A DNA stretch of 31,033 bases from the IMG/VR virus record IMGVR_UViG_3300031950_000009, positions 1 through 31,033 of that record; one strand, given 5' to 3'. The position numbers and the translations under genes were made by a program. This DNA is from a virus. The notes below the pieces were generated by a model. That model searched no databases, was not told the origin of the DNA, and saw only the letters and a list, made by a program, of their open reading frames with translations. This document shows positions 12,453 to 17,768 of this stretch, piece by piece (the stretch's first letter is position 1; the number at the start of each line of letters is the position of its first letter).

Positions 12453-12590
12453 TTGACATCCTCCCCGGCCTGAAGGCCGGAGATTCCTACCACGCTACGC
12501 GTGGATCGCTCCATGCGTAGTTGTCTCGGTGGGTTCCTGGGCCGAGTGCGCATCCGCTATCCTTCCCCGCCCTGAACGGCGGGGCTTGCC
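12453..12590. mobile_element. IS200/IS605-type end fragments (MITE-like remnant)
   Basis: One end has TTGACATCCTCCCCGGCC followed by the TGAA loop and GGCCGG (stem at 12465-12470 and 12475-12480), then AGATTCCTACCACG. This is a sequence I recognise as the right-end/omega-RNA terminal hairpin of IS200/IS605 and TnpB elements. At the other side a second hairpin, CCCCGCC(CTGAAC)GGCGGGG (12565-12584), resembles the hairpin found at the opposite end of such elements. Only about 140 bases separate the outer limits and there is no tnpA or tnpB. It is either a minimal palindrome-ended derivative or the scar of a deleted element. It abuts the broken kinase gene at 12591. Confidence 0.6.
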
Positions 12591-12697
12591 ACGCACCGGG
12601 TCGTCAAACGCCAGGCTGGAGAATCCGTGGTTCTGACCAGAATGGCGCGCACGGTGTCTTTCCCGGCCCCGGCGGAGCCGCAAAGCCCAACTAGCAT
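12591..12697 (-). pseudogene. Truncated, frameshifted deoxynucleotide monophosphate kinase-like gene
   Basis: The ATG at 12697 overlaps the last base of the recT stop. It encodes MLVGLCGSAGAGKDTVRAIL, a P-loop (GSAGAGKDT) typical of phage deoxynucleoside monophosphate kinases. After about 22 residues the frame is lost: the adjacent frame continues NHGFSSLAFDDPVR, the expected next segment of such kinases, so about one base has been deleted. Homology ends at about 12591, where the IS200/IS605-like remnant begins; the rest of the kinase is missing. The untouched frame would give only a 46-residue peptide. The enzyme would have supplied dNTP precursors for phage replication and should now be inactive. 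Confidence 0.7.
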
Positions 12698-13614
12698 CAC
12701 TTATCATCCTCCGCCTCAAACTCTGCCAACCAGTCGTCATGCTGTGCAGCGTGAGTGCCTTGCGCAGTTGGCTCTGCGGGTTGCTTGGGCGGCTCTTGCG
12801 CGGCCTGCGGCTGCGGCGGCTGCGCCAAGATTTCGCCCGTCTCTGCATCCACCGTCACGAACGCATTGTCCTGCGGCAGCCCGAGCTCCGCGCGCTCGTC
12901 AGCCTCGATGGCGGTGGCAAGCTCAACGCTGATCGGCAACCACTTGAACAGGCGGCGAAGCACGGTCTTGAGCGCCATCGCCTCGAAATGCGTTACCCAC
13001 GGGCCGCTCGTGTCAGCGCGCGATTGCGCGCGCACGGCCTCGACCTCGCGCCGAGACATCACATCAAACTGGATGCCACCGTCCTTGAGCTTGGCGACCG
13101 CGTACACGAAGCGCAGCTTGTCCGGCTGAACCCGGTTCGGGTTGTCGAAGTCGGGGATGTGCCTGAGATTGCTCTCAAGCCCGAACGACACCTCAAACGT
13201 GTCCCCCTCGTACACGGGGCGCGCTTCGATGCTGATGATCTGGCCGCTGCGGCGCGCCAAATCGATCATGCCGCGATAACCGACGATGAACTGCACTTCC
13301 ATGACACCCTTCTTGCGGTTCTCAAAGGGCACCAGGTAGGCATGCCCGAGCGGCCCGCCAGGCTCCAGTCCAAGTTGCGCACAGGTCATGAGCGCGCCGA
13401 GAAAGCTAGCTTGATCGCAGCGCTCCAGCGCAGGGTTTTTCCGAACCTCAGTAAGCGCCACGCGCGCCAGCCGGTCTGCTGTGACGTGCTTTGGCAGCGC
13501 CAACGCCATTTGCGCCTTGACCTTGGGATCGTTCAGCAGCTTTGTGATGTCGTTGCTGTTGTTGCGTTTGGCTGGCGCTTGGCCCGTGACTGCTGCTTTG
13601 AGAGTAGTTGCCAT
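12697..13614 (-). CDS. recT: RecT-family single-strand annealing protein
   Basis: The 305 residues show the RecT core: LNDPKVKAQMALALPKHVTA, LGLEPGGPLGHAYLVPFENR, VQFIVGYRGMIDLARRSG and GPWVTHFEAMALKTVLRRL. The C-terminal 50 residues are Pro/Gln/Ala-rich and probably disordered, ending in an acidic tail. It anneals complementary single strands and works with the exonuclease encoded just upstream on the same strand (one-base gap) in Red-type recombination. Expression is likely driven from the minus-strand promoter at about 16050-16078. Confidence 0.95.
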   Translation of the reverse strand: MATTLKAAVTGQAPAKRNNSNDITKLLNDPKVKAQMALALPKHVTADRLARVALTEVRKNPALERCDQASFLGALMTCAQLGLEPGGPLGHAYLVPFENRKKGVMEVQFIVGYRGMIDLARRSGQIISIEARPVYEGDTFEVSFGLESNLRHIPDFDNPNRVQPDKLRFVYAVAKLKDGGIQFDVMSRREVEAVRAQSRADTSGPWVTHFEAMALKTVLRRLFKWLPISVELATAIEADERAELGLPQDNAFVTVDAETGEILAQPPQPQAAQEPPKQPAEPTAQGTHAAQHDDWLAEFEAEDDK

Positions 13615-13615
13615 G

Positions 13616-14587
13616 TCAAATCTCCTTGAGCAAAAACCGGCGGCTGCCGGGGGTTTCTGTGGTGTATGCGGCGATCACGTCAGCGGGCGCATGCACCGCT
13701 TCCGCGACCGCCTTCCAATCGGTACGGCGGGTCGGCCTTGCGGCCTTCCATGTCACCAGCGGCTGGCCATTGAGCGCCAGGATTGATCGCTCGCCGAGTG
13801 CCAACTTGATGCGCTCTGTCGCGGCCTCGTAATCGGCCTCGGCTTGCGCGATGCGAGCTTTGGCCTCGCGCGCGGCGTTGTATGCTGCCAGCAGCTCGTC
13901 GTTGGCCTCAATGGTCTCGCCGTTATCGGCTGGGAACAGACGCTCCACGTCTTTGGCCTTTGCAGGCTCCGGCGGTTGACGCGTGAGCACGTGGCGGCGC
14001 CAGAAATCATGTGCACGCTCCAGCATTGCGGTGATGGTCTCGTTGTCGCGATAGATGCGACGGATGACCATCCGCTGCCCGCCGATCAGGGCAGCAACAT
14101 CGGCCCATGGCTGCCAGGTGATGCCCAGATACCACATCACCTGCGCCTGATGGTGCACCGGCACCGCGTCTTCATCGCCGTCGCGGCCCCACTCTCCAGC
14201 CTTGTAGGCGCTGGCGGTTTTGACCTCCAGCAAGCCCTGTGCGCCCAGCAGCGTGCCGCCATCATCTGACACGCGCACGCGGCTCCCTGGAGCAACTACG
14301 GCGCGGTCGATGTTGCCGAGTGCCCATTCGTGCGCCGGGTGGCGCAAGATGCGATTAACACGCTGCACTGCGCGCTCGGTGCGCGCGCTGTACTCGCGCG
14401 CCACCACATCTTCCAGCAGTGTACCCCACCGCACTGCCTCGGCATCGCCTAGGGCGTCCTCGATCTGGCCGGTCTTGTCCAGCCAGACGTCGACTGCTGT
14501 TTTCCACGGCGACAGCCCCAGAATGGCGGCTATGTCACTGCCGCCGATTCCCTTCTGCCTTTCGGCAAGCCATTGTTCACGGTTCAT
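13616..14587 (-). CDS. YqaJ/lambda-type 5'-3' exonuclease
   Basis: The 323 residues carry the YqaJ viral recombinase pattern. The N-terminal QKGIGGSDIAAILGLSPWKT is followed by Glu60 (GTLLEDVVAREY), Asp94 in GNIDRAV, the catalytic LLEVKT (Glu121, Lys123) and an H-x-x-Q helix (VPVHHQAQVMWYL). It is a PD-(D/E)xK nuclease that resects double-strand ends to give the 3' tails used by RecT. The C-terminal part is helical and charged. It lies one base upstream of recT and follows a run of small genes in the same transcript. Confidence 0.93.
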   Translation of the reverse strand: MNREQWLAERQKGIGGSDIAAILGLSPWKTAVDVWLDKTGQIEDALGDAEAVRWGTLLEDVVAREYSARTERAVQRVNRILRHPAHEWALGNIDRAVVAPGSRVRVSDDGGTLLGAQGLLEVKTASAYKAGEWGRDGDEDAVPVHHQAQVMWYLGITWQPWADVAALIGGQRMVIRRIYRDNETITAMLERAHDFWRRHVLTRQPPEPAKAKDVERLFPADNGETIEANDELLAAYNAAREAKARIAQAEADYEAATERIKLALGERSILALNGQPLVTWKAARPTRRTDWKAVAEAVHAPADVIAAYTTETPGSRRFLLKEI

Positions 14588-15181: not shown

Positions 15182-15354
15182 AATGCACCTGACAGCCGCG
15201 CATACCGCTTCGCGTGCACCCTAACCTGGGCGCACTTGCGGCACATGCAGCCGGAGCGGTGACCGGTCACGGCCGCTACACTGCAGTTTATGGCCTTCAG
15301 AACCGCCTCTCGATCTTGAGAGGTGGACGAGGATTGGCGATTCTTCCCTTTCAT
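15178..15354 (-). CDS. 58-residue Cys-rich protein, possible zinc binder
   Basis: The sequence runs MKGKNRQSSSTSQDREAVLK and onward, with Cys24, Cys36, Cys38 and Cys41 plus nearby His and many basic residues (SGCMCRKCAQVRVHAKRY). This clustering suggests a small zinc-binding nucleic-acid-contact protein. Start and stop overlap their neighbours by ATGA on both sides, which supports translation. No family is recognised. Confidence 0.6.
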   Translation of the reverse strand: MKGKNRQSSSTSQDREAVLKAINCSVAAVTGHRSGCMCRKCAQVRVHAKRYARLSGAL

Positions 15355-15629
15355 TGCGGCTCCTTATGCTTTAGGACTGCAATTCCCGCATGCGCGAGCT
15401 CAAGGGCCGCAGCGGCAAATGCCGCCTCAGCGACCCAAGGTGCGCCGCGAGTGTCGTCGAGCAATTGATCGACAACATCCGCGGCTTTGGCGCGCATTGC
15501 CGCACATGCGGCCTCGAGTTCGTCGCCGCTGGCCGCAGCGATCTCCTGGCGGCAGGTGCGCATCAGCACCTGCAGAGCCGCCTCGGCGAGCTTGGTGCCG
15601 AGGTTTTCGATTTTTGCGGTGTTGATCAT
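15351..15629 (-). CDS. Helical phage protein, unknown
   Basis: The 92 residues are strongly alpha-helical and Ala-rich, starting MINTAKIENLGTKLAEAALQ, with no membrane segment clear enough to call. The ATG has AGGAGG just upstream, inside a 5' leader nearly identical to that of the next gene upstream (see the two leader entries). The stop overlaps the next start (ATGA). The function is unknown. The shared leader suggests that it is co-regulated with the 101-residue protein encoded upstream. Confidence 0.6.
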   Translation of the reverse strand: MINTAKIENLGTKLAEAALQVLMRTCRQEIAAASGDELEAACAAMRAKAADVVDQLLDDTRGAPWVAEAAFAAAALELAHAGIAVLKHKEPQ

Positions 15630-15681
15630 GGTTTCCTCCTAGCCCCAGACCCCCTGAGGCACGGGTGCAGCGGGATGCTGC
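15627..15681 (-). promoter_or_regulatory. Duplicated 5' leader, copy A
   Basis: Read on the minus strand, this is a GCAGC(ATCCC)GCTGC hairpin (15667-15681), a CCTC segment, a G-rich run GGGGGTCTGGGGCTAGGAGG that includes the ribosome site, then the ATG. It aligns with copy B at 15985-16041 at 44 of 55 positions with one gap. The hairpin is kept although its bases differ. Such conservation in a short gap suggests a shared translational control element. The G-run could form a quadruplex over the ribosome site; this is an inference. Confidence 0.5.
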
Positions 15682-15987
15682 TCAGCCAATCATCCCCATT
15701 TTTACTGGGGGGACGGCGGCACTTGCCACGGTCACCGCATACTGCACGAGCAGTTTTGGCCGCATTTCTTCGGTGATCGCGGTACGCTTTGTGGCCTTGC
15801 CGTCTTTGTAGCAGACGGCTTCATCGCCTTCACGGACCAGTTTCTGGCCCCCTACATAGGCGATCACCGCGCCTTCGGGGATTGCCCCCTCTCGGATGAC
15901 CTTTTCGAGCACCTGTGGGTTATACCTGTACAGAGGCACAGACTGAGCGATGCTGTGGGCCTGTTTGATAAGCGCTTCAACTTCCAT
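15682..15987 (-). CDS. First gene of the minus-strand recombination operon, unknown
   Basis: The 101 residues start MEVEALIKQAHSIAQSVPLY and contain a compact middle (EGAVIAYVGGQKLVREGDEA) with beta-hairpin character. It is the first gene after the sigma70-like promoter at 16050-16078, and its leader (copy B) carries a perfect 7-bp hairpin at the expected transcript start. No motif is recognised. As the first early gene it could be regulatory, but there is no HTH pattern. Confidence 0.6.
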   Translation of the reverse strand: MEVEALIKQAHSIAQSVPLYRYNPQVLEKVIREGAIPEGAVIAYVGGQKLVREGDEAVCYKDGKATKRTAITEEMRPKLLVQYAVTVASAAVPPVKMGMIG

Positions 15988-16041
15988 GATTCCCTCCTAG
16001 CCCCTGATCCCCCGAGGCGCGGGTTACAGCAACATGCTGTA
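15985..16041 (-). promoter_or_regulatory. Duplicated 5' leader, copy B
   Basis: On the minus strand it starts with TACAGCA(TGT)TGCTGTA (16025-16041), a 7-bp stem at or just after the predicted transcript start, followed by the same CCTC and G-rich ribosome-site run as copy A, ending at the ATG at 15987. The promoter-proximal hairpin could stabilise the mRNA 5' end or serve as a binding site for a regulator. The evidence is sequence similarity only. Confidence 0.5.
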
Positions 16042-16049
16042 CGATTTGT

Positions 16050-16078
16050 ACTATAATGCACACCAAGCATGATGTCAA
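16050..16078 (-). promoter_or_regulatory. Sigma70-type promoter for the minus-strand early operon
   Basis: On the minus strand TTGACA (16078-16073) is followed after exactly 17 bases by TATAGT (16055-16050): a perfect -35, a five-of-six -10 and ideal spacing. The predicted start is near 16043, at the head of the leader hairpin. An imperfect inverted repeat TGCACACC/GGGGTGCA (16057-16064 and 16079-16086) flanks the -35 region and may be an operator for the divergently encoded XRE protein. Confidence 0.8.
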
Positions 16079-16146
16079 GGGGTGCATCTATGAAATTTTT
16101 TTATAGCGTGGATAGTTTTGTTTTATGAGCATAGACAGCGACTTGC

Positions 16147-16180
16147 TTACCAAGCGCCGCCATCTGTGTTATGTTATGAT
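16147..16180 (+). promoter_or_regulatory. Probable promoter for the plus-strand regulator/replication operon
   Basis: TTACCA (16147-16152) lies 17 bases before TATGTT (16170-16175). Overlapping this is TGTTATGAT (16172-16180), which reads as an extended -10 (TG-n-TATGAT). Either would start transcription about 20-30 bases before the XRE gene, which has AGGAG upstream of its ATG. The match is weaker than that of the minus-strand promoter. The AT-rich tract at 16090-16135 may hold further regulator sites. Confidence 0.45.
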
Positions 16181-16208
16181 CGTCATGTTAGACCAGTAGG
16201 AGCAAGCC

Positions 16209-16412
16209 ATGCAAACATGTCTAAAAATCAAAGAGATACGCAAAGCCGCCGGTATGTCACAGGAGAAGCTCGGTGCCGCGTTGGGCCTCGACCAGAGCAT
16301 CATCAGTAGGCTTGAGCGCGGGCAGCGCCCGATCACGCTAGAGCGCCTGTGCACCATCGCTGAGGCGCTCAACGTCTCGGTGCATGATCTGATCGAGGAT
16401 CGGCGGTCATGA
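16209..16412 (+). CDS. XRE-family HTH regulator
   Basis: The 67 residues are a single helix-turn-helix domain: IKEIRKAAGMSQEKLGAALG followed by the recognition helix LDQSIISRLERGQ, then a stabilising helix with ITLERLCTIAEALNVSV. Its length is that of a minimal Cro/C.-protein-type regulator. It lies divergently from the recombination operon, across an intergenic region with promoters on both strands and inverted repeats, so it probably controls one or both operons. The stop overlaps the next start (ATGA). It may be a lysis/lysogeny switch component; no second repressor gene is in the window. Confidence 0.9.
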   Translation: MQTCLKIKEIRKAAGMSQEKLGAALGLDQSIISRLERGQRPITLERLCTIAEALNVSVHDLIEDRRS

Positions 16413-17230
16413 TCATCAGATCACCTAGACCAGAAACGCACTTCTACGTGCTGGACAAGCGCATCAGCGAGGACAGGCGTCTCTCATGGGCAGCCCGTGG
16501 TCTGCTGATCTACATACTCGGCAAGCCAGACAACTGGCGCGTGTCGGTTGCCGCACTTGTTAACGAGGTAGCAGGCACGGAAAAGCCGACAGGCAGGGAT
16601 GGAACATACGCCTTGCTTGAGGAGCTTATCAAGGCCGGCTATGTGCGCCGTGAGCAGCCACGAGGTAAGGACGGCAAGCTTGCCGACGTCACCTACATAG
16701 TGTTTGAGGCCCCGTCACCGCATACGGCTCAGCCGCATACGGCTCAGCCGGATACGGCTCAACCGCTTCCGGCAAATCCGACACTAACAAGTACTGAATA
16801 TAGAACAAGGATTGATAATGAACCAAGGATTGAGAGTAATAAGCGCGCACGCGCGCGCGCATCAAAGCCGTCCGCCAGCCTCTCATGCCCGCCAGACGTT
16901 GACCAACAGGTCTTCGCCGACTGGCTTGCAGTGCGCAAGGCCAAGCGAGCAGGCCCCGTCACGCCGACAGTGCTCTCAGGCATCCGCGCCGAAGCAATGA
17001 AGGCTGGCATCAGCCTGCAAGACGCCATCGCGCATTGCTGCCTTGCCGGGTGGCAGGGCTTTAGGGCGGATTGGTATCTGTCCAAATCACCAAAGATGAC
17101 CAACAACGTAAGGAGATCGATCCATGAAGAACGAGCAGAAGTCATTGCAACACTCACAGGCCGAAATCGACAACCGCAAACCGGCAGAATCATCGACATC
17201 ACGCCAGATGCTTCCAGCGTCCTGGATTGA
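16409..17230 (+). CDS. Phage replication initiator-like protein with N-terminal winged helix
   Basis: The first 100 or so of the 273 residues form a winged-helix domain of the type seen in lambda O-like and DnaD-linked phage replication proteins (ETHFYVLDKRISEDRRLSW, ARGLLIYILGKPDNWRVSV, LLEELIKAGYVRREQ). A low-complexity linker follows with a tandem five-residue repeat (PHTAQPHTAQPDTAQP, about residues 104-119). A C-terminal domain (about 160-245) contains VDQQVFADWLAVRKAKRAG, which is typical of O-like partners. It probably binds the phage origin and loads the next protein or host helicase. It overlaps the downstream gene by 107 bases. Confidence 0.75.
   Translation: MIIRSPRPETHFYVLDKRISEDRRLSWAARGLLIYILGKPDNWRVSVAALVNEVAGTEKPTGRDGTYALLEELIKAGYVRREQPRGKDGKLADVTYIVFEAPSPHTAQPHTAQPDTAQPLPANPTLTSTEYRTRIDNEPRIESNKRARARASKPSASLSCPPDVDQQVFADWLAVRKAKRAGPVTPTVLSGIRAEAMKAGISLQDAIAHCCLAGWQGFRADWYLSKSPKMTNNVRRSIHEERAEVIATLTGRNRQPQTGRIIDITPDASSVLD
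16718..16762 (+). repeat. Three 15-bp tandem repeats in the linker of the replication gene
   Basis: CCGCATACGGCTCAG is repeated head to tail at 16718-16732 and 16733-16747. A third copy at 16748-16762 differs by two bases, and a degenerate fourth follows. The period is a multiple of three and encodes PHTAQ units. Repeats inside replication initiator genes can mark an origin (iterons, as in lambda O), so this is a candidate origin region as well as a protein linker. Confidence 0.7.
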
Positions 17231-17768
17231 GCGCATCTTCCAACGACTGACGGCCTTCTACGGATCGCGATTCGCGGACATGTGGCGCGGCTGTGATCTT
17301 GATGCGGTGAAATCAATCTGGGCGCAAGAGCTCGCAGGATTCACGAAGGACGAGCTCGCAGCAGGAATCGCAGCATGTCGAAATTTGGAATGGCCGCCAA
17401 CGCTGCCGACATTCATGAAGCTGTGCCGCCCAGCCTTGGACTACGAGCGCGCGTTTCTGGAGGCGGTCGAACAGATGCGCAAGCGCGAAACAGGCGATGA
17501 TCGATGGAGCACGCCGGCGATCTATTGGGCCGCGGTAAAGCTCGGATCAGACCTCTCGGCCTACCCATACCAGTCGATCAAAGGCCGCTGGCAGGCCGCG
17601 CTCGATGAGGCAATCGAGGCCATCCGCACCGGCAAGCTGCCGGCAGAGGTGCCGAAGCGCCGTGAAGCACTCCCCGCCCCTGGTCAGTGCATCGTGCCAC
17701 CCGAGGTGGCCAAGCAGCGGATTGCCGCTATCCGTGACATGCTGACCCGCAAAATGACCATGCAATAA
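17124..17768 (+). CDS. Lambda P-like replication protein / helicase loader
   Basis: The 214 residues include SWIERIFQRLTAFYGSRFAD, FTKDELAAGIAACRNLEWPP and LPTFMKLCRP near residues 33-103, the pattern of replication protein P and DnaT-like phage proteins. The ATG has AAGGAGA eight bases upstream, a strong site that fixes the start despite the 107-base overlap with the O-like gene. It is expected to recruit the host replicative helicase to the phage origin. Gene order O-like then P-like matches lambdoid early regions. Confidence 0.75.
   Translation: MKNEQKSLQHSQAEIDNRKPAESSTSRQMLPASWIERIFQRLTAFYGSRFADMWRGCDLDAVKSIWAQELAGFTKDELAAGIAACRNLEWPPTLPTFMKLCRPALDYERAFLEAVEQMRKRETGDDRWSTPAIYWAAVKLGSDLSAYPYQSIKGRWQAALDEAIEAIRTGKLPAEVPKRREALPAPGQCIVPPEVAKQRIAAIRDMLTRKMTMQ

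Follow-up and report, generated by a model that had tools for sequence, protein, structure and literature searches.

A pseudoknot leader before unrelated genes of phages and a plasmid: a candidate portable element of translation control

Background

This work concerns two leaders, B and A, that stand before two adjacent minus-strand genes (gene 1 and gene 2, respectively) of the virus record IMGVR_UViG_3300031950_000009, and the family of RNA elements to which they belong. The window analysed here is that entire record, 31,033 bases. From comparison of the leader sequences we believe it probable that both are copies of a small structured RNA that serves as a portable element of translation control: a pseudoknot touching the 30S subunit, with a reader supplied by the host, carried before unrelated genes. 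The closest described systems share parts of this picture. The leader of T4 gene 32 is also a pseudoknot in a phage mRNA and controls translation, but it serves a single gene through that gene's own, autogenous repressor, and its pseudoknot lies farther from the Shine-Dalgarno (SD) sequence. Riboswitches of the preQ1 and SAM-II types place an H-type pseudoknot at the SD as our leaders do; they differ in that no Rfam match to them lies at a leader and that the genes behind the leaders are not metabolic. The radC RNA is proteobacterial and, like our family, lies near DNA-related and antirestriction genes; its model has 149 positions, which sets it apart.

Three other systems deserve comparison. 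The 5' untranslated region of tisB contains a pseudoknot needed for translation by way of a ribosome standby site (PMC7708055), but it belongs to a single toxin gene and its standby region lies 100 nt upstream of a sequestered ribosome-binding site. The put RNAs of phage HK022 are about 70 nt long with two stem-loops, and there is one each behind PL and PR (PMC9378689). They resemble our leaders as phage leader RNAs behind an early promoter that act without a dedicated protein, but theirs are two stem-loops that act on RNA polymerase and have no tie to a start codon. The STAXI motif (PMC2864571), an RNA with tandem pseudoknots, occurs close to genes for ssb, antirestriction and integrase; structure and gene context are alike, but its model has no match on the leaders.

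Rfam 15 contains no family that reaches its gathering cut-off in the window. Even at permissive E-values there is no sense-strand match on a leader, either in the window stretch or in 16 leader-bearing loci. Two antisense matches overlap the window leaders at chance level, a BMV3 pseudoknot (E=1.2) and a MIAT exon (E=2.3). STAXI (RF01728) was considered and rejected, as none of 40 carrier records passes the cut-off and one match (E 0.36) lies away from the leaders. The radC motif (RF01754) fares likewise: none of the 40 carriers reaches the cut-off and none of the weak matches, found in 16, is on a leader. As a separate observation, sub-threshold matches to suhB/mmgR and RAGATH-18 occur in carrier phages at L075:3032-3109 and L083:206-273. 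We found no description of the leader family in the literature covered, which leaves out subscription journals and a 2017 paper with 224 RNA candidates; the families of that set were scanned as far as they are included in Rfam 15. A term search of PMC11109978 finds no mention of phage or plasmid. The family is apparently undescribed, and the original prediction, which spoke of two leaders, understated what is a large group.

A family of leaders

The two leaders were first noticed as near-duplicates before dissimilar genes, and both parts of that claim hold. They share 44 identical positions, the ATG included, by hand count of the alignment, and a 40-nt stretch is 85% identical, while BLASTP gives no alignment between the gene 1 and gene 2 proteins at E<=100. 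The core pattern matches twice in the window and not at all in 100 dinucleotide shuffles. A covariance model (CM) scores leader B at 51.2 bits and leader A at 40.8 bits, both sequences being part of the model, and there is no third copy in the window (next score E=0.69, filters off).

Pattern and covariance scans of IMG/VR phage records, together with BLASTN into plasmids, yield 123 distinct leaders (124 entries) in these phage records and on one plasmid. The exact core led to L022, a phage with the same layout of helix-turn-helix (HTH) gene, promoter and leader and a different first gene. The pattern CCGCGCCTCGGGGN{3,9}CAGGGGC gave 95 stretches and looser scans added others, for 112 entries after duplicates were collapsed; 12 more were chosen from the covariance hit lists of carrier records. 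L136 and L210 are the same leader, entered twice in the totals of 112 and 124. The plasmid, p2 of the gammaproteobacterium Dyella sp. BiH032, was reached by BLASTN with leader L074 and has five copies; it contains trb-type transfer genes, yet PLSDB types it as non-mobilizable. Three copies each are found in the phage records G044, G058, G059, G064 and also G095. In L140 (G044:87500-88052) the three leaders lie inside about 550 bases with a different small gene behind each. Another arrangement is seen at L035:3322-3627, and likewise in L036, where a leader gene, with a promoter-like sequence belonging to it, is a lone minus-strand unit among plus-strand genes, in the manner of a moron.

The searches are specific. 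A shortened core matches forward in 27 of 30 carrier records and never when read backward, although one of the 36 forward places (G033:52105) is unsupported by the model search. The covariance model R1 matched all 50 carriers in one set and all 31 in a second. Among 12 records added solely as relatives of replication genes it matched one, G011, which has a real leader, and among 37 loci of such relatives it matched two, both with leaders already known from other loci. Candidates set aside were L071, L079, L080 and L088, which lack the leader layout (of 19 stretches from one looser scan), the genome-scan matches L024 and L025, which are chance, and the plasmid matches H97 and H100, again without the layout. 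Short BLASTN queries in the phage collection gave no trustworthy match over most of a leader among the matches listed, H96 being chance.

What is conserved is the leader and not the gene behind it, as the original prediction had supposed. The 118 leader proteins of at least 35 aa have a median length of 96 aa; clustering at E 1e-5 sorts them into 91 groups, of which 80 have a single member. Relatives of gene 2 at 21 IMG/VR loci show no leader match below E 0.7, and on this ground we reject the idea that gene 2 carries the leader along. Those loci (L001-L021) have another conserved stretch, GCGCTTGGCTTC...CAGCGCGTTCATC, about 20-90 nt upstream of the gene 2 homologue, which could be a different leader element.

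The pseudoknot

We number the core C1 C2 C3 G4 C5 G6 C7 C8 U9 C10 G11 G12 G13 G14, followed by a linker and GGGGC. Two helices can be drawn in it: S1, of about 3 base pairs, between C1-C3 and G12-G14, and S2, of about 5, between G6-C10 and GGGGC. On the sequences compared, the best reading of the core is an H-type pseudoknot with a CCC/GGG stem, S1, and a loop GCCUC that would pair with GGGGC beside the SD. An H-type pseudoknot calls for two crossing helices with covariation in both, and S1 and S2 provide them. The CCTC and the G-run of the original prediction are both present, but as the two strands of one helix, on the best reading, rather than as separate motifs.

The evidence for S2 comes from positions where the searches left the bases free. 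N6 and the base that follows the G-run, both unconstrained, pair in 21 of 22 leaders (GC 16, AU 2, UA 2, GU 1; permutation p=2.3e-4), the lone mismatch being U/C in L038. Over all non-consensus leaders N6 pairs in 33 of 34, though 12 of these are CM-found and R1 models S2 and not S1, so that such copies are biased towards S2 pairing and unbiased for S1; with close relatives dropped the count is 30/30 (p=5.5e-5). U9 changes to C or A with the pair kept in L090, L100 and L029 (in L029 only with a bulged G), the adjacent pair at C10 being lost in some of them. Where the scan pattern leaves the partner of U9 free, it is G in 11 of 12 distinct leaders and A in one. A U-G wobble is present in 111 of the 123 rows of the whole set, most of them fixed by the pattern; 6 of the 123 (L127, L135, L153, L163, L179, L193) were misparsed as unpaired and actually have the consensus core. 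It is important to realize that U-G counts as a standard pair in sense-strand RNA alone, and the wobble therefore speaks against both an antisense RNA and a structure in DNA.

The variation in S1 comes from CM-found copies, with CCT/AGG and CTC/GAG on the plasmid, CCGC/GCGG in L303 and CCCG/CGGG in L304. Two alignments summarize the pairing, A2 for the whole structure and A4 for S1. In A2 (40 of 110 usable leaders, including every variant known at that point, with one base wrongly placed by MAFFT in the GTGGG rows) 96.7% of cells pair, a value reached in none of 500 shuffles, and 3 pairs are changed on both sides, which 1 of 500 shuffles matches. In A4 (42 leaders in 39 distinct rows: 9 with the consensus and 33 of the 34 without it) 95.5% of cells pair and 5 cells are changed on both sides, with 0/500 shuffles as high; in S1, 3 of the 4 tested pairs have changes on both sides. 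The original prediction had named in advance a covariance search in related phages, in which lack of conservation of the hairpin or G-run would speak against it; the search did not come out that way. From these comparisons we regard as established the pseudoknot, through its covariation, its fixed place by the SD and AUG, and its independence of the gene behind it.

Two roles suggested at the outset find no support in this analysis. A quadruplex needs four conserved G-runs, whereas the runs are interrupted in members that keep their pairing, such as the CCT/AGG and CTC/GAG copies of the plasmid, L072 with GG only, and L029 and L076 with GTGGG. An RNA thermometer would have its SD masked by pairing that melts with heat, but no conserved pairing appears to cover it. 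Because the plasmid CCT and CTC variants keep S1 and lose pairing of CC to the SD, the nested fold that such pairing would make is not a conserved feature.

Placement, promoters and the 5' hairpin

The pattern (CCGCGCCTCGGGGN{3,9}CAGGGGC) contains neither an SD nor a start codon. There are 90 non-redundant matches, 4 of which have fewer than 25 bases downstream and were excluded. In all 86 others an ATG or GTG open reading frame (ORF; 40 aa or longer, or running off the end of the stretch) starts 5-21 nt after GGGGC, and in 72 of them 11-14 nt after it. An SD-like sequence, by a lenient list of motifs, is found in 83/86.

Many leaders also begin with a hairpin, H1, a stem of variable sequence ending 0-3 nt before the pseudoknot. 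It scores at least 7 in 46 of 112 leader entries, compared with 4/112 at a position 60 nt upstream and a shuffle mean of 2.6 (maximum 10 in 200). In leaders A and B the H1 stems are also in the folds predicted by RNAfold. The original prediction called them compensated; both stems do pair, but only one stem position is truly compensated (A-T versus G-C), the stem of B being otherwise longer. A -10-like hexamer lies 18-52 nt upstream of 46/124 entries, as against 12/124 in a control window, and is associated with H1 (p=0.027). This association might mean that hairpin and pseudoknot together solely stabilise the 5' end of the message against decay. We find that very unlikely, since by these thresholds 47/124 leaders have neither H1 nor the hexamer, leader A follows a stop codon, and protection from decay explains neither the spacing to the AUG nor the conserved loop bases. 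H1 is found with promoters but is missing in many leaders, and is therefore an optional part that tends to sit at promoters.

Leader B stands behind a sigma-70-type promoter (TTGACA-17-TATAGT, 11/12 consensus matches, spacer 17), the one found in a scan of 15550-16250 where shuffles give a mean of 0.4, and its expected transcription start is at about the first base of H1. The same scan finds no promoter for leader A, which begins at the base directly 3' of the gene 1 stop codon and has H1 although it is inside the operon. A start at an early promoter, seen here and in L022, two structured parts in about 60 nt and the failure to find a partner protein would all suit an antitermination element in the nascent RNA, like HK022 put, that alters RNA polymerase near the start of the early operon. 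The tight spacing to the start codon does not suit it, nor does the position of leader A, and G044 has three copies within about 550 nt, whereas there is one put RNA each behind PL and PR (PMC9378689). We give this explanation very little credence.

The genes behind the leaders

In most of the phages the leaders precede genes of unknown function. Pfam recognizes only a minority of the leader proteins: DUF6948 in 15, DUF932, LPD29 and DUF7666 in 2 each, AAA-type ATPases also, and Antirestrict, VbhA, DUF4942, Cas_VVA1548, NUDIX and DNA_pol3_beta_2 in one each. Among the PHROG matches listed (25 of 54 families) are two DNA methyltransferase families, an anti-restriction protein and a RusA-like resolvase, with one member each; NCBIfam adds IteA, a model for an anti-phage ATPase, in 2 proteins and TIGR03299 in 1. 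A tblastn search with a DUF6948 protein in the phage collection gave no match. On the plasmid the leaders precede antirestriction, LPD29, VbhA and DUF4942 genes and a hypothetical gene beside ssb, a set that, by analogy, resembles establishment and anti-defence cargo.

The five plasmid copies have nearly identical promoter sequence and share leader sequence, and the genes behind leaders look exchanged. With a context of ssb and antirestriction genes that recalls plasmid leading regions, this could suggest a DNA-level element (an operator, a recombination boundary or a single-strand promoter) that is merely located before genes. The sense-strand G-U wobbles and the fixed distance to the start codon speak against such an element, and a -10-like hexamer is near only 46/124 leaders. 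We believe it is extremely improbable.

An observation of a different kind is that 33 of the 118 leader genes begin with an M.NHPNR-like N-terminal peptide (for example L130:1836, L143:361, L140:5545 and L165:7271), many of the proteins being otherwise unrelated. The examined loci contain 49 ORFs of this type, 33 with a leader and 16 without, and since the 33 use 27 different nucleotide spellings the peptide itself seems to be conserved. Such genes are mostly without H1: they make up 5/58 among leaders with H1 and 30/64 among those without.

The search for a reader

We compared 14 carriers (12 phage records, the window and 50 kb of the plasmid), with ORFs from a simple caller. At most 3 of the 14 records contain relatives of any one ORF by BLASTP (E<1e-3, covering over half of the ORF), although remote homologues could be missed. 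A reader, if there is one, is therefore probably supplied by the host, and would be a host component, a small molecule or the ribosome itself.

This bears on two further explanations. The leaders might be sites for a translational repressor encoded by the mobile elements, as with T4 gp32 on its mRNA pseudoknot; a pseudoknot leader would fit, as would its presence in multiple copies on one element (five on the plasmid, three in each of several phage records). Without a protein family common to the carriers, within the limit just given, we think a repressor of this sort quite unlikely. A riboswitch-like aptamer, a pseudoknot that binds a small molecule and gates the adjacent SD, needs no such protein, and a small H-type pseudoknot abutting the SD with near-invariant loop bases is what one might expect of it. 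We consider it unlikely, since the downstream genes have no evident common pathway and the examined leaders have no Rfam riboswitch match. The protein-binding switch of the original prediction, or a ligand switch, is a possible role that the leader sequences allow.

The surroundings of the two leaders

The neighbourhood of the leaders reads as a lambda-like early region (Table 1). In leader A the bases U15661 and A15655 stand where most members have C and G.

Table 1. Coordinates of the leaders, their parts and nearby genes in the window
Feature	Position	Strand	Remarks
Leader B	16041-15985	-	5' of gene 1; span includes ATG
Leader A	15681-15627	-	5' of gene 2; span includes ATG
Sigma-70-type promoter of leader B	16050..16078	-	TTGACA 16078-16073, TATAGT 16055-16050
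Leader B hairpin H1	16025..16041	-	TACAGCA TGT TGCTGTA; near expected transcription start
Leader A hairpin H1	15667..15681	-	GCAGC ATCCC GCTGC; directly after gene 1 stop codon
Leader B pseudoknot	16000..16023	-	S1 16023-16021/16012-16010; S2 16018-16014 (GCCUC)/16004-16000 (GGGGC); covariation in relatives
Leader A pseudoknot	15642..15665	-	S1 15665-15663/15654-15652; S2 15660-15656 (GCCUC)/15646-15642 (GGGGC); covariation in relatives
SD of gene 1	15993..15999	-	TAGGAGG; abuts leader B pseudoknot
SD of gene 2	15635..15641	-	TAGGAGG
Gene 1	15682..15987	-	101 aa; no Pfam or PHROG match at E<=0.05
Gene 2	15351..15629	-	92 aa; phrog_36268 (unknown function)
RecE-like exonuclease	13616-14587	-	
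RecT	12697-13614	-	
HTH protein	16209-16412	+	divergent from leader genes
O-like initiator	16409-17230	+	divergent
Gene with sub-threshold lambda P match	17124-17768	+	divergent

Apart from the leaders, the minus strand at 12461-12600 has a pair of GC-rich hairpins whose loops read TTCAG; GAGGATGTCAAGG comes after them, and we take the whole to resemble the right end of an IS605/TnpB-type transposon.

Discussion

The arrangement we propose runs from an optional H1 through the H-type pseudoknot to an SD within a few bases and a start codon mostly 11-14 nt after the pseudoknot. Once folded, the pseudoknot would touch the mRNA exit side of the 30S subunit and so set the use of the adjacent ribosome site, and its near-invariant bases would be read by a factor the host supplies, which may be a small ligand, an RNA-binding protein or a protein of the 30S subunit. 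Where H1 stands at the start of a transcript, it probably shields the 5' end. The whole would be a cassette that phages and at least one plasmid carry before early, establishment and accessory genes unrelated to one another. It is an effect of the folded RNA on 30S loading that we infer here, and the direction of that effect likewise.

Several observations weigh against this proposal and should be stated together. Because most core bases were fixed in the seed scans, the real diversity is larger and the invariance is overstated, and the bias of the CM-found copies towards S2 has been mentioned. Versions of the structure slid along A2 still reach as much as 75.5% of cells paired, where the structure itself has 96.7%, a high value for slid versions that comes from the G/C-rich core. 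Of the 39 rows of A4, 4 lack the outer S1 pair, and C5 and G11 pair in 36. RNAfold, for which pseudoknots are not possible, places S2 within a weak pairing of CC to the SD in 4 of 5 leaders, and gives L121 a CCCG/CGGG hairpin instead; fold energies of 5 leaders are ordinary compared with shuffles (z +0.26 to -2.22). Finally, constitutive enhancement, repression and a ligand switch all fit the data alike. The nested fold, in which S2 is closed by CC with the GG of the SD, could in a folding model be the off state of a switch.

A wider idea, which we put forward tentatively and think possible but doubtful, is that one pseudoknot leader, read by a factor or metabolite of the host, sets the translation of establishment and anti-defence genes in phages and plasmids that have no relation to each other and probably come from Pseudomonadota. 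If this is true, these elements would share a regulon that is defined by an RNA and not by a protein. With at least 123 leaders before mostly unrelated genes and no Rfam family at its cut-off, many small genes of unknown function in uncultivated phages carry a common regulatory tag, and this tag may be used to find candidates for early or anti-defence genes. The leader family would also be a case of regulation that moves between phages and a plasmid independently of the genes it precedes.
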